Shown: positions 36,198-60,203 of the stretch, one piece after another
Numbering within the stretch: the first letter of the stretch is position 1
Layout: every line of letters starts with the position of its first letter
Source of the DNA: Alloacidobacterium dinghuense
GTDB lineage: Bacteria > Acidobacteriota > Terriglobia > Terriglobales > Acidobacteriaceae
Direction of reading: 5' to 3'
DNA: 64,000 nt
Assembly: GCF_014274465.1 (NCBI RefSeq)
Contig: NZ_CP060394.1
Coordinates: forward strand, 372,001 to 436,000
The notes under the pieces: generated by a model
What the model saw: only the letters and a program-made list of their open reading frames with translations
What the model was told of the DNA's origin: nothing
Database searches by the model: none
Made by a program: the position numbers and the translations under genes

Positions 36198-36606
36198 ACC
36201 TACCGCGCGAAACTGATATCAATTGACGAGAACTTACGGTCTGATTGACTTGCCTCGATTTTCTCAACCATTCATAGCTGAGGATTTTAGAGTTGTGATT
36301 GGCCCTGATTTTCCACGCCGATCTGAGAGTTAGTCGCCGGCGGTTATGAGTTGAACCGCCGCCGAAGCGTGGACCGGCTTCGCGCCAAATCGCCAAAGCG
36401 ATCATCGAGGGGTCCGACGTCCGCGTCGAAAGTCCAAGTCGTCATCTCGGACCTTGTCGCCTACTCTAGTTGCTTGTATCAGCGAGAGTACCGTTTCAGT
36501 ACTGCGCAACGCTATTGCAGCGACAGGGCACAGCTTTCCAACGGAATAGATGTTTGATAACATCTATTGTGGGCATCTCTTTTTTGGGCACGCCTTGGAG
36601 CAAACA
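36198..36606. other. Intergenic region upstream of tetR
   Basis: No gene seen. It carries the palindromic operator at 36545-36568 and, presumably, the tetR promoter. Confidence 0.45.
36545..36568. promoter_or_regulatory. Palindromic operator 1 (TetR autoregulation site)
   Basis: Perfect 10-bp arms AATAGATGTT and AACATCTATT with a four-base centre (TGAT), located 38 bases before the tetR start codon. The same palindrome recurs at 38283, 39598 and 39668, each near a gene start in the next 3 kb. Most simply the binding site of the TetR protein encoded just downstream. Confidence 0.82.
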
Positions 36607-37167: not shown

Positions 37168-37261
37168 CTTCACAGACCGGGAGAGCTAAGGCTATTACGA
37201 GAATAAATTTTCCTCAACGCAGATGCGGAAACGCAGCACCTGTGAAGTGAAGCAGCATGTC

Positions 37262-38075
37262 TCACTTCTTTGTTAGAACCGCGGACAGGAGCCCAAGACG
37301 CCTCTCGCGCAGGTTGCGGGCCAGGTTGCCGACCAATTCCTGGAAATCGGTACCCATCACAATGCCGAGGCTCGGTCCGGTCGGCAGACGGGCCATCGCC
37401 TCCTTGAACCAGTCGAGAGCGCTTTGGGTGTCGTCTCGCCAGAGGATGGTCTTGAATCCAGCTTGTTCAAGTTCCGTGCGTGTGTCGTGTTCGCTGAGCA
37501 GGAAACTGGTCGAGGCATCGCGCCCAAGGGACGGGATAGAGGACATCGCCGTCGCGCAGAACCAGATCGTAGGTTGCAAATCGTCCGCCGGGCGTAAGCA
37601 TGCGGCCCACCTCGCTATAGAGCGCGGAACGGTGCTCAATGTTCATCGCCACGTGCTGTAGGAACACTACATCGAAATTCCCGTCGGCGAAGGGCAGATC
37701 TAAAGCATTACCTACCTGGAACGTAAGGCGGTCTAACATTCCGGTGCGCGGTGTCAGGTAGTTGGCTGCGTCGATAAAGGCAGAACTCAAGTCGACACCC
37801 GTAACTTTACAGCCGAAAGTGGCGGTGAGATAGCGCGCGGGTCCGCCGATGCCACAACCAAGATCCAACACGCGGGTTGCGGGCTCGATGTCAGCAACCG
37901 TGGCAAGATCGGCCGTGGCGAGGATACCGCGAGTGTGGAACTGGTCGAGTTGAGCGAGTTGAGCGATGGTCACTGTTTGATCCTCGGGCGCGAAGCTCGC
38001 GAGGGCCGATTTGATGCGGTCGGTGAGGCCAGTACCACTGTAGTGTTCCTGTACCTTGGTAGTCGTATCGGTCAT
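37262..38075 (-). pseudogene. SAM-dependent methyltransferase (UbiE-like) with a one-base frameshift
   Basis: GGAG seven bases before the ATG at 38075 starts MTDTTTKVQEHYSGTGLTDR. SAM motif I is DLGCGIGGPA at 71-80, followed by GNALDLPFADGNFDVVFLQH. After LYPVPWA, at about 37529, one extra base moves the continuation DASTSFLLSEHDTRTELEQ to another frame, which runs to a stop at 37262. Repaired, it would be about 270 residues, normal for the family. It may be an artefact; otherwise the C-terminal substrate lid is lost. Confidence 0.8.
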
Positions 38076-38282
38076 GAAGGTTCTCCAGAAAGCATGGCTG
38101 ATTGCGTTGATTGCCTTACGAGGCAGCCGCATCACCGGCGACCGCGCAAATCAACTTGGGCTAAGGGCATTTCATGGTTCGTACTATGCAGGACCGGAAT
38201 CTACATTTGTCCCTCGCTCAGGACTCTTATCCATTATTTGGATGATATTAAGCCTCCAAATGCTTTCCTTTTTTGAATCCAG

Positions 38283-38304
38283 TTAGATTGTTGACAACAT
38301 CTAA
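38283..38304. promoter_or_regulatory. Palindromic operator 2 (upstream of the NmrA-like gene)
   Basis: TTAGATTGTT-GAC-AACATCTAA, an operator-1-like palindrome with one inserted base, 33 bases before the NmrA-like start codon. It suggests control of this reductase by the neighbouring TetR protein. Confidence 0.72.
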
Positions 38305-38337
38305 AATGTGGGCGCATCGAAGCGCAAAAGGAGGAGT

Positions 38338-39237
38338 ATGTCGAAGATGTTTTTGGTAACGGGATCGACTGGGTTGACGGGAAGCAAAACCGTGAAGTTC
38401 CTGGTCGAGGCAGGAGCCCGCGTGCGAGCATTCGTTCACAACGAGGATGAGCGTTCGGCGGCTTTGGCCGCTCAGGGTGCCGAAATTATGAGGGGTGATT
38501 TGCTGGATTTCGAAGCCGTCCGCTCTGCACTTGAAGGAACTCAGGGCGCATATTTTGTTTACCCCATCAGGTCCGGCATCCTGCAGGCGTCGGCCTATTT
38601 CGCTCAGGCAGCGAAGGAGGCTGGCATCCAGATCGTGGTGAATATGTCCCAGATTTCGGCGCGCCGGGAGGCCAAAAGTCACGCTGCCCAGGATCACTGG
38701 ATTTCGGAACAGGTCTTTAACTGGTCCGGCGTGCCTACGACGCATCTTCGTCCAACCCTATTCGCGGAATGGGCTCTCTACTGGATCGATCAAATCAAGA
38801 CGGGAATCTTACGGTTGCCCTTCGGGACCGGAAAGCATGCGCCGATCGCGGGGGAAGATCAGGCCCGGGTGATAGCGAAAATTCTGCTCACCCCGCAAGA
38901 GCATAAGGGACAGGTGTACCGGCTCTATGGAGAGAAAGAGTACAGCTTCCCCGAAATTGCGGCCGAGATCGGTAAGGTCATCGGCAAACCCCTGGGCTAT
39001 GAACAAGTGGATGCCTGGACACTAAAGAAGTTGAATGCCAACATCCCTCGTCGAGATTACCAAGGCCGAGAACAAGTTGTTACCGATACACTCTGGCAGC
39101 ACTTCGAGGAGATTGCGAAAGACCACCAGAATGGAGTGTTTGCTGGAACAAACGATCTGGTCGAGAAGATCGGAGGACAACGACCAATCGGGCTGCCTGA
39201 ATACCTTGAGGCGCACCGAAGCGCGTTTCTGTCTTAA
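38338..39237 (+). CDS. NmrA-like NAD(P)-binding reductase
   Basis: 299 residues. TGSTGLTGSKTVKFLVEAGA (residues 8-27) is the Rossmann motif, followed by VRAFVHNEDERSAAL and GDLLDFEAVRSALEGTQGAY, typical of atypical SDRs of the NmrA/quinone oxidoreductase type. There is no Ser-Tyr-Lys triad. AAAGGAGG lies just before the ATG. With its operator it probably handles quinones or electrophiles as part of the TetR regulon (inference). Confidence 0.87.
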   Translation: MSKMFLVTGSTGLTGSKTVKFLVEAGARVRAFVHNEDERSAALAAQGAEIMRGDLLDFEAVRSALEGTQGAYFVYPIRSGILQASAYFAQAAKEAGIQIVVNMSQISARREAKSHAAQDHWISEQVFNWSGVPTTHLRPTLFAEWALYWIDQIKTGILRLPFGTGKHAPIAGEDQARVIAKILLTPQEHKGQVYRLYGEKEYSFPEIAAEIGKVIGKPLGYEQVDAWTLKKLNANIPRRDYQGREQVVTDTLWQHFEEIAKDHQNGVFAGTNDLVEKIGGQRPIGLPEYLEAHRSAFLS

Positions 39238-39597
39238 ATTCACAAATAAAGGGAGCTGACTTTTGTCGGCTCCCTAGTGTGCCATTTAGATTGTCATCTT
39301 GGTGGCCGCTCTGTTAGGCGCAGCTACCATCGCTAGCCTTCTCTTGCGTACGTCGCTTGATTTCGCGAGCCGTAGGATTGACCAAATTGAAGCGGTCCTG
39401 GCAGTGAAGTGCGAGCATGTGTGTCGGCTATTGGAGCGATCAGGATGACACAGAGAGGCATCCGACTACCTGAGGAAGACTCTGACACTTTCTCGATGAG
39501 CATGTTTATCAGATAGTTTTATTCGTTCCGTCCCTCCGTCCTGAAGTCGCAGTTGGCCGAACGCAGTGCGGCCAGGTCTCAAGTCCCACCGCCTAGA
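39238..39597. other. Intergenic region with a hairpin, no gene seen
   Basis: After the hairpin at 39251-39274 no supported frame is found. The stretch ends at two operator-like palindromes. Confidence 0.4.
39251..39274 (+). terminator. Hairpin after the NmrA-like gene
   Basis: GGGAGCTGAC and GTCGGCTCCC (one mismatch) around a TTTT loop, 13 bases after the stop. The following sequence is not T-rich, so termination is probable rather than certain. Confidence 0.55.
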
Positions 39598-47370: not shown

Positions 47371-47766
47371 TCATTTTGTGCTGCTGGCAGAAGTGCTCGA
47401 AGAGGCATCGACTTGATCGAATCGGACCGTTTGGTTTCTCCATTCGATTTCCTGGACAATGTTTCCGTTGGTAAAGCGAATTGCCGTGTCATTATATGGT
47501 GACTTCTCCTGAATCACCGTTGCAGGGGCGGTGGCGATTGTCTCCCTTTCCTTCATAATGCTGACTCTGACAGATGAACCGGTGCCTTCCCATTGAACGC
47601 GATAGTCCCCTGGCTGTATCTGCGTTCCGTTCACAATCACGGTATCTTCAAACGTGATGTTAGCCCAATTCTTCGAGGCAGCTGGTAACGCTAAGGGCAT
47701 CATCAGCATGAATGAGATTAATAACGAGAGTAGTAACGAGTGTAGTAAAGTATGCTTCGATTTCAT
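47371..47766 (-). CDS. Small secreted beta-rich protein of unknown function
   Basis: 131 residues from the ATG at 47766 (AAGGAGCACAG upstream; earlier in-frame starts lack a site). Signal peptide MKSKHTLLHSLLLSLLISFM, then beta-rich ITFEDTVIVNGTQIQPGDYR and VQWEGTGSSVRVSIMKERET. The motif (I/V)NG-x-x-(I/L)-x-PG-(D/N)-Y recalls the protein at 56.4-56.8 kb and many small acidobacterial exported proteins. Function unknown. Confidence 0.72.
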   Translation of the reverse strand: MKSKHTLLHSLLLSLLISFMLMMPLALPAASKNWANITFEDTVIVNGTQIQPGDYRVQWEGTGSSVRVSIMKERETIATAPATVIQEKSPYNDTAIRFTNGNIVQEIEWRNQTVRFDQVDASSSTSASSTK

Positions 47767-47966
47767 TCTGTGCTCCTTCATGAAACTTGGTATGATCGCC
47801 GCCTGTCGCGACAAAGTATCCACTTCGGCATAGCGGCAAGAAATGGATCAAAAGATAAGCAATAGCCATCTGCAATCTCATATCGCCTCTGGCTGCGATG
47901 CGGCTGGCCAGCAGTTAAACGTAGTAAACATTTGTGACTCTATCGAGTCTCTCTTTCACTAGGGAA

Positions 47967-48150
47967 AGTGTGGCTGCGACATTGGTCCAGGTATTTGTTG
48001 GAACAACGGAGCAATGCGGGACATGATCCTCTTCAATCTCTGGCAGCGCTTCTGCACTGCTCAGGAAGCATTTCTAAAGATGAGATGAGACGCATTGTGC
48101 CGGAGAGTATCGTTAAGATGTCTTCTAATCTCAGATTGATCGACGCGCCC
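47967..48150. repeat. AhpD/AraC divergent control region, copy a (both genes decayed)
   Basis: Aligned with copies at 50.6, 53.8 and 59.9 kb. The minus strand still starts an AhpD-type protein (MSRIAPL, ATG at 48024) but soon breaks. The plus side reads TTGATCGACGCGCCCTC where the others have ATGGATCGACT; the start codon is changed. The intergenic part is 111 bases, with GAGACGCATTGTGCCGGAGA corresponding to the inverted-repeat region of the others. Confidence 0.75.
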
Positions 48151-48617
48151 TCTTCGACAGCTACCCTGACTCGACCTTCGGTTCGAGGAGTCGGCTGCGA
48201 ATCAATTGAGAATCTAGCCTCAGAGAGGCGTGCATATATTAAGTGCATGCTCCCACGCCGCACTGTTTATCGCGAAGGATTCGGTCATCAGTGCCGCTTT
48301 GATTAGATCCTATTCGGGTCCGGCGACATACTTCTTTAGCAGATGAGACGGCAAGTAGCAGATGTCTTTTATGGGAGAGTGTGGTTTCCGACCATCGCCG
48401 AAAACCACGCAGACGTCACCCAGCCATTGGTCATAAAGTGGAGATCGTGACACTGAACACCGCGCGAAAGCTCCCCCCGGCACTCCAAGGTTCTTGTTCC
48501 AAGAGCCGGCAGATATCAACGGTCTCAAACAGCCACCCAGACATCGAGCTTGAGCCCCATGCCTCGTTGAGACATGGGGTTCACTAACATCGTTGCTTCG
48601 CGCGACATTTGCTCTCG
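48151..48617. other. Decayed stretch, no supported gene
   Basis: Presumably former araC coding sequence at the left end, then unassigned DNA. A hairpin CCCCATG ... CATGGGG (48555-48579) may terminate the leftward AhpD-like gene. Confidence 0.4.
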
Positions 48618-48923
48618 TTAATCTTTAAACAAGTGCGTCGCGTGTGTGATCGATGCGCCCGCACGCATCGCGGCGGCCACTATTGCTGCTTCCGTCAGCA
48701 TAGCGTCGCTTGCTCCGGCCTGACGCGCTGCCCTCACATGCAATTCGATGCAGTATGGACATTGCGTAGTCAGCGCAACGGAGACTGCCATCAACTGCTT
48801 GTGCAAAACGTCGATGGCACCGTCTTTGAACGTCTCTTTATCGAAGGCCCAAAAGGCCTTCATCGTTTCAGGTGCATTCTCATCCAGCTTCTTCAGCCGA
48901 GTCAGATTCTTCATGTCAAACAT
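48618..48923 (-). CDS. AhpD-like alkylhydroperoxidase / carboxymuconolactone decarboxylase family protein
   Basis: 101 residues, the standard single-domain size. The catalytic motif is TTQCPYCIELH with C55, C58 and H62. MKNLTRLKKLDENAPETMKA resembles CMD proteins that reduce peroxides with a CxxC pair or act as related hydrolases. GGAG lies seven bases upstream of the ATG. A frameshifted close copy lies at 31.1-31.4 kb. Confidence 0.88.
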   Translation of the reverse strand: MFDMKNLTRLKKLDENAPETMKAFWAFDKETFKDGAIDVLHKQLMAVSVALTTQCPYCIELHVRAARQAGASDAMLTEAAIVAAAMRAGASITHATHLFKD

Positions 48924-49335
48924 GTGAGTAACTCCATTCGGTTTTGTGTAGAGGCGCTGCTCACGGTAAGAGGTACGGAGAGCGCGTTTGGTTAAACGTC
49001 TCAGGGCTTCAGGAGTGATTCCCTAAAACGCACGGGAATAGCGAAATTCGATCCGTCAAAGTCACGTACCATTTCATTCTTTTCTTACTGCGGGCGAACA
49101 GAACTTTATGCCCTCAACAACGTGGCCGACGCCGATGTCCACGCCCTCATGCTTTGCTGTCAAAGACAGGGTTGTGGGTAGGGTGCGCCCGGCGCCGGAC
49201 CACGGTCCACGTGGACTCTCTGAACTCCGCATCACGCAATTCAGAGCAGGCGTGACTCTGGAAAACTCCTGCTTCAGCGGATAGAACGACAGCGCTAGCA
49301 GAACCACAACTTTCACCACGAAAGCAACTTTCTGG
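48924..49335. other. Region between the AhpD-like gene and the DUF417 gene
   Basis: On the minus strand a frame (49074 to about 49320) begins VVKVVVLLALSFYPLK, signal-like, and continues with a polar tail (HEGVDIGVGHVVEGIKFCSP). It directly follows the DUF417 gene and might be a short secreted protein, but has no ribosome site or family I know. Confidence 0.3.
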
Positions 49336-49914
49336 CTATTCGGATTTGTTTTCGGAAAGGATGGCCTTCTTGCCGAAATAGCTAACCAGGTAAAAGGACA
49401 CTCCGAGGGATATAACATCCTTGAAAAGGAACAGGCCCAAGAAACTCATGTACCTCATCCCGTGAATCCCAGGTACGGAAATAATCGCGCCAGGGGTGGT
49501 CATGATCATAGTGCTGGTTGTAAAGAAGATGACAATTCCGACGAGTCCCCCAAAGATGCCGGCCTTGGGTCTAAAGTAGCCCGCGATAATCAAGACGGCG
49601 GAAAGCCACTCGGTAAGGCCGATAAGGTCCGATCCGACATATGGACCGAATAACTTAAAGTGCCACCAGATCAGAAAGCTGTTGGAAACCAGGGGGATGA
49701 TGCCTTCGGCGCCGGGCCGCGTCATCTTGTAAGCTCCGGCCCAAAGCAGCATAACGATCATACCGATACTCATGATAAGGAAGGGGAGATTGCGCTTACT
49801 TATCCATGCGGCCAATCTGATCAAATTGCTTTGAGCTTGTTCCAAGAGATTAGTAGATGGCACCAGATTTTGCTTCTCTGAGCCGACTGCTTGGGTAGAC
49901 GTGATGTCACTCAT
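49336..49914 (-). CDS. DUF417 (YkgB family) membrane protein
   Basis: 193 residues from the ATG at 49914 (GGAGGAAGTGAC upstream). A polar N-terminus, then four helices; IMSIGMIVMLLWAGAYKMTR, SFLIWWHFKLFGPYVGSDLI and TTSTMIMTTPGAIISVPGIHG are typical of the YkgB/RclC family. In E. coli the family member RclC is induced by reactive chlorine species. With the AhpD-like genes on both sides, a role in oxidant or electrophile stress is likely but inferred. Confidence 0.86.
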   Translation of the reverse strand: MSDITSTQAVGSEKQNLVPSTNLLEQAQSNLIRLAAWISKRNLPFLIMSIGMIVMLLWAGAYKMTRPGAEGIIPLVSNSFLIWWHFKLFGPYVGSDLIGLTEWLSAVLIIAGYFRPKAGIFGGLVGIVIFFTTSTMIMTTPGAIISVPGIHGMRYMSFLGLFLFKDVISLGVSFYLVSYFGKKAILSENKSE

Positions 49915-50092
49915 TGTCACTTCCTCCTTGCTAAGGTTCATGTGTTTACACGTGGGCGTCTGTCGATAGGCACTTTTGAATACACAAACGGTTGCCCATC
50001 GGCGTGGAACAGAAATGAATTTTGTCCGTTCAACGATGGCTTTCAATCGTCTTAGGCACGAGTAATTCTTTGAGCGTTGACCTGCCTTAGAG

Positions 50093-50626
50093 CTAGACCT
50101 CAACGACAGGGGAGTCGATTTCCGTATCGGCCAAGCGATTGGCATAGTTAGTCAATGTATTGAGCGCGACATTCGCAACGACTTCCAACATGAGTCCGTC
50201 GTCGATCCCGGCCTTGCGGGCACGGTCGAGATTCTCGTCTGAAACAAGGCCACGTTGACGGATGATGTTTTGCGTGAAGTGGATCAAAGCACGCTCGAAG
50301 GGATCATCGCTCTTCCCAAAGCGTGCTTTGCGGGCATCCGCTGCGCTGAGACCGACACCCTCTGCTAATGCCGTGTGAGCGGAAAGGCAGTATTGGCACG
50401 AGTTCTCTTGTGCTATAGCCAGTGCGAGGATTTCGCGTTGACGACCGGTGAGGCGGCCGGGCGAAAGGGCTTTTGACAGTGACAGGTATCCATCCAGCGC
50501 GACGGGCGCATTTGCCAACAGGGCAAACACATTTGGGACATTCCCGACGCTCGCTTTTATATGAGAAAGTGTGGCAGCAACTTTGGTGTCGGTGTTGGCC
50601 GGAACAACAAGAGCAATGCGGGACAT
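50093..50626 (-). CDS. Carboxymuconolactone decarboxylase / AhpD-family peroxidase-like protein
   Basis: 177 residues from the ATG at 50626 (GGAGAAGATG upstream). ALAIAQENSCQYCLSAHTAL holds C77, C80 and H84, the thiol motif of AhpD-like proteins. The N-terminus MSRIALVVPANTDTKVAATL is the sequence that recurs, truncated, at the three other copies of the control region. The promoter is the 110-bp divergent region shared with a broken araC gene, so this gene is probably activated by an AraC regulator when its ligand is present. Confidence 0.9.
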   Translation of the reverse strand: MSRIALVVPANTDTKVAATLSHIKASVGNVPNVFALLANAPVALDGYLSLSKALSPGRLTGRQREILALAIAQENSCQYCLSAHTALAEGVGLSAADARKARFGKSDDPFERALIHFTQNIIRQRGLVSDENLDRARKAGIDDGLMLEVVANVALNTLTNYANRLADTEIDSPVVEV

Positions 50627-50760
50627 CATCTTCTCCAATCTCCGGCAGCGCTTCTGCACTGCTCAGGAATCATTTCTGGAGATAAGACGATACGCATTAT
50701 CGCATGGAGTATCGTTGAAATATCTTATAGTCTCGAATGGGTCGACTGGTCCCCTTCTTC
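50566..50760. repeat. AhpD/AraC divergent control region, copy b (AhpD side intact)
   Basis: 110 bases separate the AhpD start (50626) and the araC start (ATG at 50737). An inverted repeat CGATAC-N15-GTATCG and the motif ATATCTTATAGTCTCGAATG just before the araC start are shared with copies c and d. Confidence 0.85.
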
Positions 50761-51118
50761 GAAAAGCTTTCTTTCACGGCTCGGATGTTTTATTCGGGAC
50801 TCTTGTACGGCAGCACGGGAAACCGTAAGCGAACCTGCCGATCATCTTCATCTGCTCAAGAAAGGACGACTGAAGATGACCCGGCCAGATGACCGTCAAA
50901 TGGCCATTGATACGCCGAGGATCTTGTTTTTTCCGCGCCCTCGCCCCCATCGTCTTCAGCCCAGTTCAAGAGGGCGTATGCGCCACCATCGAATTCAGCA
51001 CCGGAATGTTGAACCCTCTCATCGCATCGATGCCAAAACCACTCGTGCTCTCGGTTGATGCCCTTCCAGGACTTGAAGCGACACTGCAGCTCTTGTGGCA
51101 GGAGCAATTACCGCCCGA
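50737..51118 (+). pseudogene. AraC-family regulator, frameshifted and 3'-truncated
   Basis: The first frame reads MGRLVPFFEKLSFTARMFYS then derails. Other frames continue HLHLLKKGRLKMTRPDDRQM and CATIEFSTGMLNPLIASMPK, each matching the intact AraC protein at 53.9-54.8 kb. It stops at the end of the oxidoreductase gene; the cupin remainder and the whole helix-turn-helix are missing. Confidence 0.8.
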
Positions 51119-51125
51119 GCGCAAA

Positions 51126-52511
51126 TCAACGATTCAAGCTCCTAAGCGCGGTCTTAGCGGCGTGGTAGCCGGCCATTCCGTGGACACCGCCGCCAGGGGG
51201 AGTCGATGCTCCACAGAGAAAAAGATGAGACAGGGGAGTCCGATAGAGCAAGCGTGTAGGACGGAAGAGAATCTGACGGATATCCATGACGCCTCCCAGG
51301 AAGTCGCCTCCAATCAAGTTTGGGTTCCATCGCTCAAGTGCTGCGGGTGAGGAAACGGATCGGGCCAAAATGCAATCTCGAAAATCCGGAGCAAATCGTG
51401 TGATCTGGTTTTCGATGCATTCCGTACAGTCTCTTGTGCTTCCGTTAGGTACATGGCAGTAGGCCCAGGCGGTATGCTGACCCGCCGGGGCTCGGCTCGG
51501 GTCAAAGAGCGATGGTTGACCAAGAAGAACGAAGGGCCGCGCGGAGGTAAAAGTTCGCTCCGATTCGACGATCTCTTCAAGCGAGCCCCCAATGTGAACG
51601 GTCGCAGCTCGCGAGCATTCGGGAGCAGTCCAGGGAATAGGCGCTCGCAGAGCATAGTCAATCTTGAAAGCGCCAGCGCCATAGCGGAAGCGCTCCAAGA
51701 GCTTGCAGTAATGCGGGGGCAGTTGAGAGCCTGCGATGCGAAGAAGTTGCCGGGGAGTGATGTTGGCGAGAACGAGGCCGGATTGTGGAAGCTCTACAAC
51801 TTCATGATTGGTCTCGATGTGCCCGCCAAGATCTTGCAGATGACGCGCGAGGGCATCTGGGAGGGTTTGAGCACCGCCGCGTAAGATAGGCCAGCCAAGG
51901 GCATGACCAGCAGCCATGAGGGTTAAAGCGACGGCGGCTGAAGCCGGGGCTGCTAATGAAAGCACGGAATGAGTCGCCATACCGGCCAAAAGAGCTCGGG
52001 CGCGCGTTCCAGCGAAACGAGAGCGCGCAAGAGATGCTGCGGAGAGAAGTGCCGACGAGCCGAAGCGTGCGAGCACCAGCGGGTGGCGTGGAATATGCTG
52101 AATCGGCCCCAGAATATCTTCAGATAGTTCTGCAAATTCAGAAGCCAGGGGAGCTATTAAGGACCGGTAGCTGCTTTGGTCACATTCATCTAGAGTATCG
52201 ACGGTAGCTTCAATGGAATGTTCAAGCATCACGGCCGTTCCATCGTCGAGCGGATGAGCACAGGGGGCCGTTGGTTCAATCCAGGGAATATTGATGGGAA
52301 GCGAGCGAAAGAAGGGGCTTGCTACGCCCATTGGATAGGCAGAGGATCCTAGATCCTGGCGGAAATTCGGTAGCGTGGTCTCCGCAGTCGAACACGCGCC
52401 ACCGATCTGGTTATTGCGTTCAAGAACAGTGGTAGCAATGCCGGCGGCAGCGAGAACGATTGCGGCCGAAAGGCCGTTCGGGCCGGAGCCGATAATGGTC
52501 GCGGTTTGCAC
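51126..52511 (-). CDS. FAD-dependent oxidoreductase (phytoene dehydrogenase-like)
   Basis: 461 residues starting at a GTG (GGAGG ten bases upstream). The N-terminal dinucleotide motif GSGPNGLSAAIVLAAAG (8-24) and ERNNQIGGACSTAE are typical of CrtI-type flavoproteins. The C-terminal FLCGASTPPGGGVHGMAGYH is the matching FAD-binding end. No carotenoid genes lie nearby, so the substrate is open. The 3' end truncates the araC pseudogene, so its arrival may have broken the AhpD/AraC pair. Confidence 0.88.
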   Translation of the reverse strand: MQTATIIGSGPNGLSAAIVLAAAGIATTVLERNNQIGGACSTAETTLPNFRQDLGSSAYPMGVASPFFRSLPINIPWIEPTAPCAHPLDDGTAVMLEHSIEATVDTLDECDQSSYRSLIAPLASEFAELSEDILGPIQHIPRHPLVLARFGSSALLSAASLARSRFAGTRARALLAGMATHSVLSLAAPASAAVALTLMAAGHALGWPILRGGAQTLPDALARHLQDLGGHIETNHEVVELPQSGLVLANITPRQLLRIAGSQLPPHYCKLLERFRYGAGAFKIDYALRAPIPWTAPECSRAATVHIGGSLEEIVESERTFTSARPFVLLGQPSLFDPSRAPAGQHTAWAYCHVPNGSTRDCTECIENQITRFAPDFRDCILARSVSSPAALERWNPNLIGGDFLGGVMDIRQILFRPTRLLYRTPLSHLFLCGASTPPGGGVHGMAGYHAAKTALRSLNR

Positions 52512-52735
52512 AAGTTAACCGCCTCCTTTGCTCGGCTAGCTTGTAACTACACTCCATATTTGAACACTTAATTGCGTCAGGTCAGGGTATCGCTGGATGA
52601 AAGCCGACAGCCCAGGTAGATAGGTCTTGCCCGTTCGAACACCGAGGATTCGTGGCTGAGCAACTCGACAGCATTGGCACGGCTTACCATTTTGTTGACA
52701 TCCTCACCGCTTGAGCCACGGCCAATGTTCTGTTG

Positions 52736-53356
52736 TCAGGGAATCCAGAGTTCGTTCTTCTTCAACGAACGGCGAAGCATATGCCGCGCTCGCACGAGTC
52801 TTAATTTCACATTCGTCTCGGTAATGCCGAGAGTTGCTGCAGCTTCTTTTATTCGACGGTTTTTTCCGTACCGGTGATCGATCACGCTGCGCATGTGACA
52901 CGGAAGCCTTCGCACTGCATCACCTAAGATCTGTTGTGTTTGACTAATCATGCACCGTTGCTCAGGGTTCGGTTTAGGATCTCGGACTTGCGGGGTTTTA
53001 ATTTCTTGAGCGTCCTCGGTTAGCACCTCTGATGTCGTCTTCGACAGGGTTTTGCGCTTTCTAAGGAGCATCAGAGATCTGTTAATTCCGATTCTTATCA
53101 TCCAAGTAGAGAACTTGCTCTTTCCCCGAAAGCTGTGGAGGTGCTTATATGCGCTTAGGAACGTATCTTGAAGAACGTCCTCTGTATCTTCCTGTTGTCG
53201 GACGATGCTGAATATCCTATGTTTCAGCATTGCGTTATAGCGCAGGCACAATTCGCCAAACGCCTCGTGGTCTCCAGACTTAGCTTGGGAGAGCAACTGG
53301 TCGTCGGAGAGTTGTGGTTGTTGCAGCGTTGCATCTGCGAGGATATTAGTACTCAT
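52736..53356 (-). CDS. ECF RNA polymerase sigma factor
   Basis: 206 residues. Region 2 (about 22-90): DTEDVLQDTFLSAYKHLHSF and SKFSTWMIRIGINRSLMLLR. Region 4 (about 140-195): RRLPCHMRSVIDHRYGKNRR and AATLGITETNVKLRLVRARH. AAGGA lies five bases before the ATG. No anti-sigma gene adjoins it, but a small membrane protein lies upstream on the same strand and might play that part (inference). Confidence 0.9.
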   Translation of the reverse strand: MSTNILADATLQQPQLSDDQLLSQAKSGDHEAFGELCLRYNAMLKHRIFSIVRQQEDTEDVLQDTFLSAYKHLHSFRGKSKFSTWMIRIGINRSLMLLRKRKTLSKTTSEVLTEDAQEIKTPQVRDPKPNPEQRCMISQTQQILGDAVRRLPCHMRSVIDHRYGKNRRIKEAAATLGITETNVKLRLVRARHMLRRSLKKNELWIP

Positions 53357-53467
53357 GACAATCCTTACGGTTGATACGTTCTTGCAAACTTCATTGACCG
53401 GAAGGCAGTCTCAGCCACCTCCGCCAGAGAATTACCTATTCGCTTTTGTGGTCTCAAGATCTGCAGG

Positions 53468-53650
53468 TTAAGCCAGCCAGAGATAGACAAGTACGCCTAC
53501 TAACACGATTAGAATGGGCCAGAGAATTACACCGGCGTTGTTCCCAGTTTTTTGGCAACTCGTATCGGGGTCGAGGTAATGAATCGCCGATGTTATCTCT
53601 GCATTTGTAAGGTGTTCGAAAGGTCCCATTAGTTTGTGGTGTTCATGCAT
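53468..53650 (-). CDS. Small single-helix membrane protein
   Basis: 60 residues: a His-rich start (MHEHHKLMGPFEHL), a soluble segment and a C-terminal membrane helix (GVILWPILIVLVGVLVYLWL). GAGGAGC lies about seven bases before the ATG. It precedes the ECF sigma gene on the same strand. The length and helix resemble tail-anchored small stress proteins; no family recognised. Confidence 0.6.
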   Translation of the reverse strand: MHEHHKLMGPFEHLTNAEITSAIHYLDPDTSCQKTGNNAGVILWPILIVLVGVLVYLWLA

Positions 53651-53777
53651 GAGAAGCTCCTCAGATCAAAGCTGTAGTGGTGACGGTTAGCTCCGTGCTA
53701 CTAGTAAAAGAATCGTGGACCCAGTGAATGAGCTACTGAAGGCGCACAGATACCTCGCACATCAGACGACTCATCGC

Positions 53778-53960
53778 AAGGGTGGCAGCAACTTTGGTCT
53801 TGGTGTTGGCTGGAACAACAGGAGCAATGCGGGACATACTTCTCCAATCTCTGGCAGCACTTGTGCACTGCACAGTAAGCATTTCTGGAGATAAGACGAT
53901 ACGCATTGTCGTAGAGAGTATCGTTGAGATATCTTATAGTATTAAATGGATCGACTCGCT
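53778..53960. repeat. AhpD/AraC divergent control region, copy c (AraC side intact)
   Basis: 109 bases between an AhpD start (ATG at 53836, reading MSRIAPVVPANTKTKVAATL before breaking) and the intact araC gene at 53946. The inverted repeat is at 53897-53902 and 53918-53923 (CGATAC / GTATCG). TATAGT lies six bases before the araC ATG, with no ribosome site, hinting at leaderless translation. Confidence 0.85.
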
Positions 53961-54779
53961 CCCTTCTTCGAAAGGTTTTCTCTGGCGGCTCAGATGTTCT
54001 ATTCGGGACTCCTGTGCGGAAGCACCGGGGATCAGGTAAGCGAACATGCCGGTCATCTTCATGTGCTCAAGAAAGGAAGACTGAAGATCACCCGTCCAGA
54101 TGCCCGTCAGATAGTCATTGATACGCCGAGTATCCTGTTTTTTCCACGTCCTCGCATCCATCGCCTTCACGGCCCAATGCAAGAAGGAGCCGAGCTCGTA
54201 TGCGCGACGATCGAATTTGGCGCCGGAATGTTGAACCCTATCATTGCGTCGCTTCCAGAGCCGCTCGTGCTTCCGCTTGACGCCCTTCCCGAACTTGCGC
54301 CGACGCTGCAACTTTTGTTCACGGAAGCGTTCGCAGAATCGCCAGGCCGTCAGGCTGCCCTAGATCGATTATTCGAATATCTCTTTGTGCTTCTCATACG
54401 ATCGGCAATGAATGCGCGCCTCATTGACAGCGGGATTTTGATGGGGCTCAGTGATTCGCGTCTTAGCAGGGCAATTGAGGCCATGCATCAATACCCTGGA
54501 ACTTCGTGGTCGCTGGAGCACCTGGCTCAATTTGCTGGTATGTCCCGTGCGCGCTTTGCTGTCCATTTTCGGCAGGTTGTCGGCATGACACCATTTGATT
54601 ACCTGACAAATTGGCGGCTGGGGGTTGCCCAAACCATGTTGCGTAAAGGCAATTCATTGAAACTGATTGCGGCCGCAGTGGGGTATGCAAATGCGACGGC
54701 TCTAACGCGAGTCTTTACGCAGCGTCTCGGAATGTCGCCTTCTGCGTGGCTCGCTCGCAGTCAGATACACAAAGATTGA
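53946..54779 (+). CDS. AraC-family transcriptional regulator (cupin_6 type)
   Basis: 277 residues. N-terminal cupin_6-like ligand domain (about 1-175; HLHVLKKGRLKITRPDARQI, TPSILFFPRPRIHRL). Two helix-turn-helix motifs follow in the C-terminal 100 residues (SLEHLAQFAGMSRARFAVHF and LIAAAVGYANATALTRVFTQ). In related pairs this regulator activates the divergent AhpD-like or reductase gene. Here the divergent gene is a remnant, so it may control the copies at 48-50.6 and 59.9 kb through the shared sequence. Confidence 0.92.
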   Translation: MDRLAPFFERFSLAAQMFYSGLLCGSTGDQVSEHAGHLHVLKKGRLKITRPDARQIVIDTPSILFFPRPRIHRLHGPMQEGAELVCATIEFGAGMLNPIIASLPEPLVLPLDALPELAPTLQLLFTEAFAESPGRQAALDRLFEYLFVLLIRSAMNARLIDSGILMGLSDSRLSRAIEAMHQYPGTSWSLEHLAQFAGMSRARFAVHFRQVVGMTPFDYLTNWRLGVAQTMLRKGNSLKLIAAAVGYANATALTRVFTQRLGMSPSAWLARSQIHKD

Positions 54780-54971
54780 ACCAACGTCTTGCCAACCAGA
54801 GATTTCACCCGACGATCTCTCCCTCAATCCCCGCTGGACCCAATTGGCGCCTTCAGGCAAACGACCGCATATTATTTTCAAAACCGTTTCGACACCATTT
54901 TTGAGAATCGATAATTGTGCGCGGAACTAGATGAGAATATTGTCGAGTATCTCGAGTCCGATCACAGACAG

Positions 54972-55002
54972 CAAGCCCGCGCTTAGTTGAGTCGCGGGCT
55001 TG
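54972..55002. terminator. Bidirectional terminator between araC and the secreted protein gene
   Basis: Perfect arms CAAGCCCGCG and CGCGGGCTTG with an 11-base loop, between two convergent genes. GC-rich stem; no long T-tract. Confidence 0.75.
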
Positions 55003-55022
55003 TGCCTCCTGGATATGCCGGA

Positions 55023-55613
55023 TTACTTTCCTGCCGAAGCAAAAGTAGCGCCAGCAACTGGAGCAAGTGCGAACACCAATTCGGTTTGTTTCTTCAGGTG
55101 AACGTCCTTCCCATTCGCGCTCAACGTACCCGAACTCGAGTCGGCGACATTGCTGCTCAATGCATATCCGTGCCTGCTCGAAGGTTCCTGATACACCTTC
55201 AAGTCCGGATTCAACGAGGGATGCATCAAGTCATTTTCATCCGTTCCATCTGGATAAACACCTACAATTGTGGACTTAATGGTGATCTGCTGACCGTTTA
55301 CCAACTGCGCCCGATCAAAGGTCAGGACGACCCTTGAAATCCCGTCGTTGCCCGAGGGCTGTACTTCGTCAATGTGTCCAATCAGCAGTGTGTTGTGCGG
55401 CAACTTTGTGTCGCCAGCAATGTGAACGGACTCAGTTAATCTGGCTTTCACCGTATCACCTTGCTTAACAGTTCTTGCGTCGACGTTCTGAAGCAGCACA
55501 GCATCGGCTGCAACTAGCTGGCTTACATTCTGTATTTCGCTCTCCGCTGCAGCAACAGTAGTCAGCGCCAAAGCCGTCGTGATAATTCCGAAATACTTCC
55601 TGATTCTCTTCAT
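55023..55613 (-). CDS. Secreted protein of unknown function, Acidobacteria-type
   Basis: 197 residues from the ATG at 55613 (GGGAGTG upstream; the frame runs back to 55778 without a site). Signal peptide MKRIRKYFGIITTALALTTV, then a beta-rich domain: VKQGDTVKARLTESVHIAGD, KLPHNTLLIGHIDEVQPSGN, VVLTFDRAQLVNGQQITIKS. The G-T-L-L-x-G-x-(I/V)-x-(E/K)-V pattern resembles outer beta-barrel cores of TrbI/VirB10-like proteins. Exact role unknown. Confidence 0.7.
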   Translation of the reverse strand: MKRIRKYFGIITTALALTTVAAAESEIQNVSQLVAADAVLLQNVDARTVKQGDTVKARLTESVHIAGDTKLPHNTLLIGHIDEVQPSGNDGISRVVLTFDRAQLVNGQQITIKSTIVGVYPDGTDENDLMHPSLNPDLKVYQEPSSRHGYALSSNVADSSSGTLSANGKDVHLKKQTELVFALAPVAGATFASAGK

Positions 55614-56374
55614 ATGAAAGAACACTCCCGTACCGTTTGATCTGTTCTGCTTTTGAAATGAGCTGTAGCGAGCGACTCGCAGGCAGGCATCATTGTGCGC
55701 TGGTACTGCTATCTCGTACGGCAGAACTCTAAATGATGTCCATGAGGAGCTATTGGTTACAGGCTTAGGAGCAAGCACAAGATATGTCGCACTGTAAGTC
55801 AGTCCGAAATGTATGCGTTAGCGTCCAAGAAAAAATTGTGATCACGAGTTGGACTGCTATCTCGAGAAATGTTAGGGCGAGGGATGCAACAAAGTGTGAA
55901 TTTCCTCGTGCTGGGACCCGAGTCTTTGCATTTTCTATGGTCATTTAACAGGATGGGACAACTTGGAACTGTGTGAGTGTTGCGTGTGTGTGTGTTGCCC
56001 CGAAAGGATAATCATCAGGATCCCAAACGTATTCGTTCTGTTTGCTAATGTGCCAAAGAGACGCAGGATGGGTTCTTGGGACTGATTCACGCACCACACA
56101 GTGCGCTTTCACCCATATGAGAATAACTACAGTTAGACGGATCGTACGCATCGTCTTTCTAACTCCAACTTAGCCGAAGCAGAAGTCGTTAGTGTGAACA
56201 CGCTCTAGTTTTGCGTTGACTGCAAGAAATGTATCCACGGCAAATGTGGCGCATCTTAAACAACGAGGGTATTAAGTTTGAATACACGGTTTAGTGAGGG
56301 CGGTACGCGTAGAAAACGACAGGACGGTAGGTTGCCACTGTTCACTTTGAAGCTTTGAAAAGGAGATTTTGGAA
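55614..56374. other. Long intergenic region, possible small frame
   Basis: A minus-strand frame (55945-56151, 68 codons) starts MRTIRLTVVILIWVKAHC, signal-like, with GGAG twelve bases upstream. It might be a small exported peptide but the evidence is thin. The rest holds promoters for the divergent secreted proteins; no other gene seen. Confidence 0.35.
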
Positions 56375-56827
56375 ATGAAGAAGTTCACCGTCACCGCCTT
56401 ACTTACGCTGGCCGGACTTGTCTCGGCCGGAAGCGCCTTTGCGCAGTTCAAGCATGAAGTGAGGGTTTACGTTCCTTTTGAGTTCAGTGTCGGCAACAAG
56501 ATGCTCCCCGCCGGCAATTACGTCTTTGATTCGGAGTCAACGCCAACAGCGGACAACCACGCGCTTCTGGTTCGGAATATCGATCATCCGCAGTATCATG
56601 CAATGAGGCTAGGAGACGGCGGCTCATGGGAACAAACGCCTCTCTACAAAGCGGATACGGAACGCCTGGTTTTCGACACCTATGGCGGCCAATATTTCCT
56701 GCGTGAAGTACGCGGCCCGGTAGGAATCCTGAATCTAGAATTCCCCACTACGAAAGGTGAGAAGGCCGCCGAGCGCACCACGGCAGCGTCGAACGCAACC
56801 CAGACCACCATCGTTGCAGGCCAGTAA
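56375..56827 (+). CDS. Small secreted protein of unknown function (VPFEFSVGNKMLPAGNY type)
   Basis: 150 residues; AAAGGAG ten bases before the ATG at 56375 (a TTG at 56369 is less likely). Signal peptide MKKFTVTALLTLAGLVSAGS is followed by VRVYVPFEFSVGNKMLPAGN and a beta-rich remainder; the Ser/Thr-rich tail looks unstructured. I know this motif from numerous short exported acidobacterial proteins of no proven function. Its own terminator follows. Confidence 0.82.
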   Translation: MKKFTVTALLTLAGLVSAGSAFAQFKHEVRVYVPFEFSVGNKMLPAGNYVFDSESTPTADNHALLVRNIDHPQYHAMRLGDGGSWEQTPLYKADTERLVFDTYGGQYFLREVRGPVGILNLEFPTTKGEKAAERTTAASNATQTTIVAGQ

Positions 56828-56847
56828 ATAGCCGGTTCTGCACGGGG

Positions 56848-56867
56848 GGCGCGGATCACTCCGCGCC
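56848..56867 (+). terminator. Intrinsic terminator
   Basis: GGCGCGG and CCGCGCC around a six-base loop, then TCTTTCATTT. Just 20 bases after the stop of the small secreted protein gene. Confidence 0.82.
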
Positions 56868-57174
56868 TCTTTCATTTGTGGTGGCAACTCTCTAACCGCA
56901 ACGCGTCTATATTCTCTAGGTCGAGTAGGGTTATGGCGCTAAGCGGGCTTGAGCCTGAGAATTTGACGTGTCACCCAGTCAAGATCACTTATTTAACTAC
57001 CCAAACAAAGCTTCAATGGAATCCCGCGGGCATGGTATGGGCCTTACTGTAAATGCGTAGTACATAAAGAATGTTCCTGGCCGCAAGAGCGACGTGTCCG
57101 ACTGCCAATGGATTCTGCATTCGGTGGGATTGCTGAAGGCCATTTTCCTTAGCCGGTCTCTTTGCCTTTCTTGG
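56868..57174. other. Intergenic stretch without a supported gene
   Basis: Frames are short and lack ribosome sites. It separates two convergent genes. Confidence 0.5.
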
Positions 57175-58191
57175 CTACTGTGCTTCGGGCGGCACCGTAT
57201 CGAGCGCACCGCTGAAGTAGCTCTCGCGGAAACGGAGACGCGCGCTTGGATAATCAGGGACACTGACGCGGATGGAGTGCATTCCGGGCGAGGGATTGCC
57301 GTCCGGACCGGATTTAGGCTGGAAGCTTAACAGATAGTAGTTGTGAATGTGATTTGTGAGTTGAAGCATACCTGCATCGAAGCCGTTGCGTGTGGTGAAG
57401 TTGATGTACTCGCCTCCTGAGAGTGCGGCCAGTTCATGCGATACGTTCTTCTTAAGAGCGCTGACGGCCATCACGAGCAGGCCAAAGGGACCGGAGCCTT
57501 CGCCGTAGTGGAGATCATTTAGGATTTCGGTCTTGCCCGGTGAGAAGGCCACCGAGTTGACGACGGTGTTGGTGCGGCCCAGCGCGGCGATCACCTCCGC
57601 GGCCTTGGTCTTGCTGTCGTGATCGCGTGTCTCGCTGACCAACAGGATGACGTGGCGATTGTGGTCGTCGCGGGCTTCCAGAAGTTTGGTTGCGTAGGCG
57701 ACGGCGTCAAAGGTGGCTGCGGCAGAGTCATCACATGGAGTGAGCTGCGCGAGGGCATCCGCTGTCACGGCGGTATCGCTTGAGAAGTTGCCGAGCAGCG
57801 TGGGGTTTTCCCCGTAAGAGACGACGGCGATCTGGTGTGGTGCTCCGCCGGCGATTGAGTCGATCATGGTAGCGAGCCCGGCGATGTGCGCCGACTCCAT
57901 CACAGCCGAGCGGCTGCATTGCACGAGCACGACCATCGTGAGGCCGAGCGAACCGGTGTCCTCGTCGACGCGGATGGTCTGCGGAACGCCGTTGTCCTCG
58001 ACGACGAACTGCTCCGGCTTAAGCTCGTAGATCAACTCGCCGTGTTTGGTCTGGACGGTGGTGGGGACGAGAACTACGTTGGACTGCGTGCGGAGCGTAT
58101 AAGGCTGCGAGTTCTGCGCGTGAATGTTCAGAGTCAGGGGCAACGCCAGGAGCACGAGCTGTTGAAGAATCCGAAGTCTCAAAGGGTACAC
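57175..58191 (-). CDS. VWFA-related secreted protein with altered metal site
   Basis: About 339 residues from a GTG at 58191 (start uncertain; the frame stays open to 58293). Signal-like LRILQQLVLLALPLTLNIHA, then the acidobacterial VWFA-type blocks TLRTQSNVVLVPTTVQTKHG, LKPEQFVVEDNGVPQTIRVD and MVVLVQCSRSAVMES. The last should be the MIDAS motif D-x-S-x-S but reads Q-C-S-R-S, so metal binding through the canonical Asp is lost. A HNYYLLSFQPKSGPDGNPSP segment ends the domain. The gene is next to a truncated DoxX gene, so the 5' end may have been rearranged. Confidence 0.75.
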   Translation of the reverse strand: MYPLRLRILQQLVLLALPLTLNIHAQNSQPYTLRTQSNVVLVPTTVQTKHGELIYELKPEQFVVEDNGVPQTIRVDEDTGSLGLTMVVLVQCSRSAVMESAHIAGLATMIDSIAGGAPHQIAVVSYGENPTLLGNFSSDTAVTADALAQLTPCDDSAAATFDAVAYATKLLEARDDHNRHVILLVSETRDHDSKTKAAEVIAALGRTNTVVNSVAFSPGKTEILNDLHYGEGSGPFGLLVMAVSALKKNVSHELAALSGGEYINFTTRNGFDAGMLQLTNHIHNYYLLSFQPKSGPDGNPSPGMHSIRVSVPDYPSARLRFRESYFSGALDTVPPEAQ

Positions 58192-58289
58192 CCAGGCAGA
58201 GCGCAGTTCGCTTCTTGTGAATCCCGAACAACATCCTGTCTTAGTAGACAGAAGGACACTGCAAACAGAACTGCATCCTTCATGAGGAA

Positions 58290-58514
58290 GCAACGTTTCC
58301 GACCCACGGGATGAGGCGCAGGCACGCCGATTGCATGCAGGACGACAGCGAAGGCTTCAAGCCCCTTGGACAGCTTGGCGAAGCCGTGCTGCATGAAGCC
58401 ATAGCTAACAATCAGCCGGAGCGGAATGGTAGACCAGCGAGCTAGAGAAGCTCGATTGAGGAACGCAAAGCGGTTGCTCAATCCCTGTTCTAGCGGTTTG
58501 CGAATGACATTCAT
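58290..58514 (-). pseudogene. DoxX-family N-terminal fragment
   Basis: MNVIRKPLEQGLS is followed by IPLRLIVSYGFMQHGFAKLS and KGLEAFAVVLHAIGVPAPH, the first half of DoxX proteins. Homology stops at about 58310, where the frame runs into the upstream region of the VWFA-like gene. The remaining membrane helices are gone. Confidence 0.72.
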
Positions 58515-58692
58515 GTTCAATTGCTCTCTTTTGAAATCGCGCTGGGGATCGGCTCCCCGCGAAGAGACGCCGATCAACTCCTAGCTGCCCACAATTGCCA
58601 TAGGGTCCACTACTGTAATTCAGGCGTGCTTTTACCGAGGGCGAAAGAACTCAGCTGCCCTATAGCAACTGGTATGGCTACAAATCTCGGTG

Positions 58693-59181
58693 TTATCCCG
58701 CTTTTCTCTCTGCGGCTGACACAGCGTTGGGCTTCTTGCGCATATAAACAAGTGCACCGCCTTTCTCAAAGCAAACCTCGTCCATTAATGCTTTCATCAA
58801 ATAGATCCCACGCCCGAAAGTTCGCAGCCGATTTTCGGATGCGGTTGGATCGTGCAGAGTACCAGTGTCAAACCCTCGTCCCTCGTCCTGAACTGCAATA
58901 GAGACCTCTCCGTCTGAAGAGCAACGGCAGGTCACGTAAACGTGCTTGCGATGGTCCTCCCCGTTGCCGTGGACTACGGCATTTTCCACAGCCTCACTTA
59001 GCGCTATCTCAATGTCCGTTTCACTCCCGTCCTTCCTTCGAAACTTCGCGATGAAATCCATGAGTCGGTCTATGAATGGCGAGATAGTCTCGATTTGACT
59101 CGGGAAGTACTGACGCAACTCAACTAAGAAAATGCCATTAGATGTGCTACGTAGGAGAGACACTGTGTGTATTTGAGCCAT
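58693..59181 (-). CDS. Anti-sigma regulatory factor / serine kinase-like ATPase (HATPase_c_2, RsbW-like)
   Basis: 162 residues from the ATG at 59181 (GGAG nine bases upstream). GHKL ATPase signatures: ALSEAVENAVVHGNGEDHRK (E63 and N67 of the N-box), VQDEGRGFD (G1) and RTFGRGIYLMKALMDEV (G2). Proteins of this build phosphorylate or sequester anti-anti-sigma partners. No STAS or PP2C gene adjoins it, so its partner is unknown. Confidence 0.88.
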   Translation of the reverse strand: MAQIHTVSLLRSTSNGIFLVELRQYFPSQIETISPFIDRLMDFIAKFRRKDGSETDIEIALSEAVENAVVHGNGEDHRKHVYVTCRCSSDGEVSIAVQDEGRGFDTGTLHDPTASENRLRTFGRGIYLMKALMDEVCFEKGGALVYMRKKPNAVSAAERKAG

Positions 59182-59290
59182 ATCTTCCAACTCCATTTGA
59201 AGGTTGCAGGTAGATATCCGGTTAAATTGCGACTATCGTCTTGCCGTTTGGTCATGGTGAACTTTTATAGATTCGCCACTCTCACACGGC

Positions 59291-59932
59291 TTACTTCTGA
59301 CGCAGTGTCCCTTCGCTATCGACCTCTGCCATATGCTGAAGAGCACGACTCCGTGTCTGCTCTATTTCTTGTAGCGAGCTGTTTAAGAGAACTGAACACT
59401 CCCGGTCGGTATATCCTTCGAGAACAGAGAGCACATATACGAAGCGTTCAAAGTCCCCAAGCGCGAGGACATTCGCAAACGGACCATACTGCAAGGCGTT
59501 ATTGGAAAGGTTGTGGTCGGTTGCCGAACGCAAAACACTGCCTCCTGGTCTTGGGGGACCAGCGTGAGGCGATTGTATTTGGATTGCGTTGTGTACTATG
59601 ATGCTGCGAGCCCAGGACGTAGCCCACTTCTTGAAGACGCGGTTTTCGTCTACGCAGCCGGCAACACCGGCCACGAAACATCGCCTTGCCTCCTTTCGAT
59701 TTCCCATTAGCAAGAAGGAGAGGAGGTAAAGACTGCTTATACTCCCTATCCGCAGCTTGCGAAACACTTCAACCGTTGCATTGTCGCTCTTCAGGATCGT
59801 TTGGGGGACAGAAGCATTTCCTAATGTGGCGAGAGTGTTGGGAATTTTGCCGAGGCTCCCTTGGATCTGAGAAAGCGTCGCGGCAACGTGGTTGTCGATG
59901 TTTGGTGCGATAACGGGAGCGATAGGGGACAT
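59291..59932 (-). CDS. Chimeric protein: AhpD-type N-terminus fused to sigma-like helix-turn-helix C-terminus
   Basis: 213 residues from the ATG at 59932 (GGAGAAGAGT upstream). Residues 1-42 (MSPIAPVIAPNIDNHVAATL, then SQIQGSLGKIPNTLATLGN) match the start of the AhpD-like protein at 50.6 kb. From about residue 60 the sequence matches the broken gene at 19.4-19.9 kb: LYLLSFLLMGNRKEARRCF, SIIVHNAIQ and FERFVYVLSVLEGYTDRECS, the last resembling sigma region 4. No CxxC remains. The frame is intact, so the fusion could be expressed from the AhpD promoter; a gene fusion by recombination at the shared control region is the simplest origin. Confidence 0.72.
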   Translation of the reverse strand: MSPIAPVIAPNIDNHVAATLSQIQGSLGKIPNTLATLGNASVPQTILKSDNATVEVFRKLRIGSISSLYLLSFLLMGNRKEARRCFVAGVAGCVDENRVFKKWATSWARSIIVHNAIQIQSPHAGPPRPGGSVLRSATDHNLSNNALQYGPFANVLALGDFERFVYVLSVLEGYTDRECSVLLNSSLQEIEQTRSRALQHMAEVDSEGTLRQK

Positions 59933-60050
59933 ACTCTTCTCCAAGCCCGGCAGCGCTTCTGCTCTACGAAGGAAACGTCTCTTAACATAGGATGAGACGG
60001 GTTGTCACACCGAGTCTCGGTGAGATATCTTATAGTCTCAAATGGATCGA
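59876..60050. repeat. AhpD/AraC divergent control region, copy d
   Basis: 109 bases between the chimeric gene start (59932) and an araC-type start (ATG at 60042, MDRLERSD, then broken). Here the inverted repeat is GAGAC / GTCTC instead of CGATAC / GTATCG, so pairing is kept while bases differ. The box ATATCTTATAGTCTCAAATG is identical to copy c apart from three bases. Confidence 0.8.
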
Positions 60051-60203
60051 CTCGAACGTTCCGACATTGAGTGCAGAGCCGTTACGGATCATGGACCACC
60101 ATTGAATGATCAAGTACTCTTGAGTGCCGGTCGCTCGAAGCAGATCCTCCGTCTGCTTGCCGGCCCGTGTAAACGTGACCCGCGCTGAATCCCCAGGCAA
60201 TTA

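Follow-up and report, generated by a model that had tools for sequence, protein, structure and literature searches.

In Escherichia coli, the AraC-family regulator RclR is activated by a disulfide between Cys21 and Cys89 that forms on oxidation (passages of a review, PMC7464077), and in Pseudomonas aeruginosa RclR activates the adjacent AhpD-family gene rclX, a peroxidase induced by HOCl and HOSCN, a system for which 117-bp promoter pieces were used (passages of PMC7950407). Here, we analysed a 64,000-nucleotide stretch of the genome of the soil bacterium Alloacidobacterium dinghuense (contig NZ_CP060394.1, positions 372,001 to 436,000; hereafter the window, to which coordinates refer unless another contig is named), in which a control region lying between a leftward AhpD-type start and a rightward AraC-type start (araC) recurs in four copies, a to d. 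As in P. aeruginosa RclR-RclX, compared here by those published passages, an AraC-family regulator stands beside an AhpD-family peroxidase gene, but the present genome has six control regions, two regulators, variable partners and leader fusions. The likeness to E. coli RclR-RclABC extends to a Cupin_6 AraC regulator whose two cysteines occupy matching positions, a DUF417 (RclC) target and the divergent arrangement, although the regulators are only 30% identical over the protein. We consider it probable (roughly 60%) that the repeated element serves as the divergent control region of an RclR-type oxidant switch, which has been multiplied within a rearranged island common to this and another genus, and that the remaining regulators act in trans.

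Repeat finding and alignment placed a shared block of about 190 bp at 47966-48155 (a), 50567-50819 (b), 53778-54028 (c) and 59873-60066 (d), where an earlier note on this DNA had located it, and blastn E values between copies (6e-152 to 9e-17) rule out chance as the source of their similarity. Copies b and c are 82% identical across 543 bases, and the remaining five pairs are 73-80% identical over 155-229 bases. The near-constant spacing that the note described was borne out (start-to-start gaps of 110, 110, 108 and 109 bases in a, b, c and d), as were the different states of decay that it assigned to the copies, with the correction that the araC of d is also a stub, its similarity stopping about 12-14 bases past the start of the ATG. 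The genes at the four copies are as follows.

47959..48024, minus strand: copy a AhpD stub, frameshifted, 21 codons and a stop
48135..48175, plus strand: copy a araC start remnant, start codon ATT
49336..49914, minus strand: DUF417 (RclC-like) membrane protein downstream of copy b AhpD (PF04224, 4.2e-18)
50093..50629, minus strand: copy b intact AhpD/CMD peroxidase, 178 amino acids, motif CQYC
50737..51134, plus strand: copy b araC pseudogene, frameshifted and cut near residue 139 (tblastn pieces)
53733..53837, minus strand: copy c AhpD stub, stopping after 34 codons, the last ~13 unrelated
53946..54779, plus strand: copy c intact RclR-like AraC regulator, 277 amino acids, Cys24 and Cys86
59291..59932, minus strand: copy d AhpD codons 1-42 fused in frame to a sigma-70-region-4-like (weak) protein, 213 amino acids
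60042..60055, plus strand: copy d araC stub, first 4-5 codons

Aligned with one another, the four copies are similar throughout the 110-base middle, which is not random. Pairwise identity was 71-85% in the 54 bases before araC, 63-88% in the half of the gap that carries the ribosome-binding site, 66-91% in the AhpD ends and 40-82% in the first 60 bases of araC. The gap is thus kept about as well as the AhpD end, in line with the note's statement that the middle is preserved like the ends, and better than araC.

To place these copies in a wider context, a DNA profile of the control region (model R1) was built from 19 copies. It recovered six copies in the own genome, namely a-d, e (C1:5227555-5227651) and f (C1:142736-142831), the last with an intact araC that is 83% identical to c and faces a DUF417 gene. 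Across the whole genome, Pfam Cupin_6 (E <= 1e-5) matched c and f only, so that the six control regions come with two intact regulators, and the single AraC protein that the note had supposed to use all copies has a counterpart at 142.7 kb. A relic at 5.22 Mb consists of the C-terminal part of araC beside half a DUF417 gene, without a control region; a tyrosine integrase gene (L052 7119-8357, own genome ~5.22 Mb) adjoins it. The search of other acidobacterial genomes that the note had proposed matched 15 of 398 family genomes at E <= 0.01; one match (G237, E 0.008) was left out, and 25 copies in 14 genomes, own included, were examined, two of them weak (G182_C1, 3.7e-7; G251, 2.3e-6). An order-level search of 298 genomes matched 14, all already found, and a blastn search of the family matched 25 of the 398 at E <= 0.01, of which 13 were set aside with matches of just 20-33 bases. 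Three other genomes of the own genus, two of them only 59% and 77% complete, held no copy.

The AraC protein is, by homology, RclR-like, that is, like the regulator of the reactive-chlorine response, and a chlorine response is predicted. The c regulator combines Cupin_6 with a helix-turn-helix (HTH_18 at 1.3e-20, Pfam), its C-terminal double helix-turn-helix places it in the AraC/XylS family, and its predicted model matches the AraC DNA-binding domain 2k9s (template modelling score by target 0.84). RclR (NF040475) was the top NCBIfam match of c (110.9 bits, E 6.9e-32), of f (113 bits) and of the G022_1 regulator (111-113 bits range), in each case far below the cut-off given further on. The c protein has just two cysteines, Cys24 and Cys86, which are invariant in 14/14 aligned acidobacterial proteins and correspond in the alignment to Cys21 and Cys89 of the E. 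coli regulator; in the predicted structure of the c protein, per-residue confidence (pLDDT) is below 50 at the positions next to Cys24 (20-23 and 26-29). Regulators of this kind would be expected to sense oxidants.

Opposite araC, the 25 copies carry an intact AhpD gene in 5, an AhpD gene that is frameshifted, internally deleted or a stub in 4 (G323_1, G323_2, a and c), an AhpD leader fused to DUF417 in 3 (G182, G323_3 and G022_2), to a sigma-like protein in 1 (d) and to a secreted protein in 1 (e), and a DUF417-type gene with its own start in 10, one of them frameshifted (G097_2); the remaining copy (G022_1) faces an apparently interrupted frame that, from its motifs, we take to be short-chain-dehydrogenase-like. 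The AhpD of copy b scored 39.3 bits against ahpD_dom (cut-off 27.8), and its AhpD core with CXXC, divergent from an rclR-like gene, is of RclX type in family and arrangement; G365, G208, G323_C2 and G251 show this arrangement as well. Pfam found the DUF417 domain in the protein downstream of it, and RclC was the top NCBIfam match of both DUF417 proteins tested, at 52 (copy b, 52.2) and 61 bits. Judged from their sequences, then, the AhpD and DUF417 partners belong to the families of RclX and RclC, respectively.

Comparable divergent CMD/AraC pairs occur on proteobacterial plasmids, with gaps, as annotated, of 107 bp in Comamonas, 99 bp in Variovorax, 92 bp in Aquabacterium and 134 bp in Cupriavidus, and with AraC proteins that are 41-48% identical to c (48% in Comamonas); on two other plasmids DUF417 lies downstream of araC instead. 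Together with the Pseudomonas parallel, these pairs make the arrangement a known kind of oxidant-response pair.

AraC itself uses direct half-sites about two helix turns apart. The gap in the 25 copies contains three half-sites, roughly (A/C)GTNTC: counted from the araC ATG, two direct ones start at -29 and -8, and an inverted one lies around -48. Over lags 6-26, the 8-base segment at -29 found its best match at lag 21 (136/200 letters across the 25 copies), the runner-up being lag 11 (102/200). Operator-like sequence is thus present where the note had expected operators, with an AGTNTC-type footprint kept across genera that is a candidate binding site for the regulator. Within the window, it lies as follows.

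48087..48132, plus strand: copy a half-sites (48087-48092 inverted, 48106-48111, 48127-48132; 1 mismatch, the proximal half-site being AATCTC)
50689..50734, plus strand: copy b predicted operator (50689-50694 inverted, 50708-50713, 50729-50734; 0 mismatches)
53898..53943, plus strand: copy c predicted operator (53898-53903 inverted, 53917-53922, 53938-53943; 1 mismatch)
59994..60039, plus strand: copy d predicted operator (59994-59999 inverted, 60013-60018, 60034-60039; 0 mismatches)

Among the 15 copies with intact araC, gap positions -60 to -6 averaged 60% identity, and third codon positions at the araC start 48%. The predicted spacing was also assessed outside the family, with 13 RclR-like plasmid genes chosen by protein similarity from listings of 418 and 125 records, among those without a listed clinical source (14 plasmid regions around such genes were fetched, and L132 was excluded, since it shares its regulator accession with L123; for 6/13 the upstream piece ends where the protein match begins instead of at a start codon). 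A 6-base repeat matching at 5/6 or better occurred at lag 21 in 7/13 genes versus at most 3/13 at 23 other lags (12-35), exact 6-base repeats at lag 21 in 4 versus at most 1 elsewhere, and repeats with the GT core at lag 21 in 3/13 versus at most 1; a stricter consensus was matched with 0-1 mismatches by 4/13 genes versus 3-4.5% of random pieces. For the proteobacterial plasmid pairs, half-sites with the 21-bp spacing can be drawn, some of them weaker, and no AGTNTC-type 21-bp repeat was found before E. coli rclR. A plasmid of Acidisarcina polymorpha (L119) has a perfect AGTATC repeat, 21 bp apart, at the start of an AraC gene that is 52% identical to c and faces an alpha/beta hydrolase gene. 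An exact search of genome contigs with the araC-side motif returned 12 stretches, 4 of them from Acidobacteriaceae or Acidobacteriales, all 4 with a confirmed RclR-like gene; the remaining 8 are presumed to be chance matches. A further candidate operator, at 6315 (1 mismatch), was rejected as lying within a coding region and at chance level. No paper on RclR operators or on an acidobacterial RclR was recognised among the matches listed in a literature search.

A few bases ahead of araC, a TATAGT-like sequence coincides in part with the proximal half-site. This overlap suggests that araC is transcribed almost without a leader and represses itself. On the other side of the gap, the AhpD gene has a conserved GGAGAAG-type ribosome-binding motif, and the leftward leader might instead act as RNA, for example through a helix hiding this ribosome-binding site, with no protein-binding operator involved. 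Pairing between TCTCC and GGAGA is predicted in 9 leaders, with 4/20 pairs changed on both sides, but the covariation term is just -0.36 and several pairs are broken, no Rfam match at gathering scores was found in 46-62 kb, and the best-kept part of the gap adjoins araC and persists where the leftward leader differs (the DUF417 types), all of which make an RNA leader very improbable.

The araC gene is intact (271-292 amino acids) in 15/24 copies and a stub in 9/24 (G255, cut by a contig end, was excluded), and stubs make up 9/16 copies in multi-copy genomes versus 0/8 in single-copy genomes (Fisher p 0.009), the araC-less copies being confined to genomes that have an intact araC. At the 17 gap positions best kept in intact copies (at least 90% conserved), stubs retain 147/153 cells; in the own genome b keeps 17, d 16 and a, c and e 15 each. 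The pair b and d differ at 1/17 of these positions versus 25% over 207 bases. We claim operator retention for b and d, each as a prediction from sequence; a and e may be debris, and are not claimed because of their differences from each other and because c is no better.

The AhpD leader is fused in frame in d, e, G323_3, G182 and G022_2. Copy e reads MSHG and then a secreted protein from its own Met onward, a relative of which lies downstream of copy a:

47371..47766, minus strand: small secreted protein gene with its own start and its own GGAG motif (Pfam gives just DUF2911, below cut-off), a relative of which is fused to the AhpD start in copy e (5.228 Mb)

That GGAG motif is missing in e, so the AhpD ribosome-binding motif there would serve the secreted protein. 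In copy d, the 42 AhpD codons are followed by about 24 further residues and then by an SLYLL stretch, which in three own-genome relatives lies 20-30 residues after the likely starts. The name sigma-like is a weak one for this partner, since Sigma70_r4_2 scored 19.7 bits in the d fusion, below its Pfam cut-off of 25.7, and one relative had no Pfam match; the own genome has open relatives of it at C1:5205648, 3245751 and 1342369 and a broken one at window 19391-19854. In the other three fusions, DUF417 is joined in each case at about AhpD codon 22, the product that a deletion within an AhpD-DUF417 operon of the kind present at b should leave. Counted by junction type (c, d, e, the DUF417 type and the internal deletion of G323_2), 4/5 are in frame (p 0.045). 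It is a serious possibility, put forward tentatively, that the stretch from the operator to the first AhpD codons is a ready-made expression leader, and that an oxidant regulon grows by leader capture and loss of surplus regulators, its orphan operators being served in trans by two sensors.

The earlier note's repeated duplication, taken as recent duplication in place, is not supported: the copies do not cluster by genome (in a tree of the core, the gap, with most forks unresolved, own copies need 5 changes versus a shuffled mean of 4.3), and copy d is 84.5% identical to a copy in another genus versus 75% to b and 73% to c. Compared with a stretch of about 14.5 kb on one contig of G323, a genome from a different genus of Acidobacteriaceae, 31-60 kb of the own window shows 19 matches of at least 180 bases, 71-93% identical, 9 among control regions and 10 in other stretches (74-93%), and the shared stretches differ in order and orientation. 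We infer an island that was exchanged and rearranged between genera, by exchange rather than by descent. The blocks at 57048-58267 and 36546-39327 are 93% and 90% identical to G323:C3 at about 495-509 kb, in another order. The same genome holds three control-region copies within 2.3 kb (L040 8277-10569), two with their araC sides facing, and a separated 3' part of araC 3.7 kb from them. Several scattered copies in one genome, and the integrase gene beside the 5.22-Mb relic, could also be explained if the ~190-bp block moved alone like a miniature transposon and landed before genes. The copy ends vary, however, no inverted repeats of at least 40 bases (the length sought) occur in 44-64 kb, and all 25 copies adjoin araC, AhpD or DUF417 sequence; with neither fixed ends nor terminal inverted repeats of that length, the block does not resemble an insertion sequence or miniature transposon, and such a cassette is extremely unlikely.

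Two small CMD peroxidase genes also lie in the window, at 31123-31410 (75% identical to the next) and at:

48618..48923, minus strand: small CMD/AhpD-type peroxidase gene, intact, with relatives near copies in three other genomes (L040, L041 and L044)

In the circuit that we propose, the AraC-family cupin regulator would sense reactive chlorine or related oxidants through its two cysteines and bind AGTNTC-type half-sites (a direct pair 21 bp apart reaching the araC start, and an inverted distal one), thereby activating the leftward gene, which typically encodes an AhpD-type peroxidase, an RclC-like DUF417 protein or both. It would probably also dampen its own gene, because the proximal half-site overlaps the araC start. 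Several copies of this module would have come to lie in the shared island, extra araC genes decaying where another stayed intact, and leftward deletions would have joined the promoter, ribosome-binding site and first AhpD codons to genes for DUF417, sigma-like and secreted proteins, leaving regulators c and f to act in trans on several operators.

A range of observations weighs against this circuit. The NCBIfam scores fall far below the equivalog cut-offs, at 110.9 (c) and 113 (f) bits versus 400 for RclR and 52.2 bits versus 275 for RclC (NF040476), and no RclA or RclB homologue was noticed at the copies, no search having been aimed at them. In intact copies the gap (60%) is less conserved than first and second codon positions at the araC start (82%). 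Six of the 13 outside genes miss 5/6 at lag 21, and several of the 13 are related and so not independent. Passages of PMC7950407 report that P. aeruginosa RclR does not regulate its own gene. In-frame cases are more readily noticed than others, which makes the in-frame test a weak one, and the conservation of stubs is partly a matter of ascertainment, since copies were found by similarity to this region. Further points would be expected if the araC-less copies were decaying, functionless remains of duplicated or transferred modules, their gaps similar through common ancestry only: a and e differ at 4/17 best-kept operator positions, like their surroundings (74% identity), copy c, with araC intact, keeps 15/17, no better than a and e, and in the five long stubs the araC start is preserved almost to the level of the operator (241/254 versus 85/85 cells, p 0.04, or p 0.11 at a looser threshold). 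AhpD is broken in a and c, partner genes are broken in G323_1, G022_2 (in its DUF417 part, further on) and G097_2, and the 5.22-Mb relic has lost its control region. Such decay would not by itself account for the operator positions kept in b and d though their araC is dead or gone, for their single difference there, for the intact AhpD and DUF417 of b, for the long open in-frame fusions of d and e, or for the restriction of araC-less copies to genomes with an intact araC, and as an account of the whole set we find it rather unlikely.

Together, these results suggest that a stress circuit has grown here as its own switch was copied. Read as the control region of an RclR-type switch, the repeat becomes a testable oxidant-response circuit in Acidobacteriota, and the direct repeat 21 bp apart gives a concrete predicted operator of RclR-type regulators to look for in other genera. 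In addition, the copies, some whole and others with the regulator lost, the partner swapped or the leader fused, form a natural series along which the growth of a regulon may be traced step by step.

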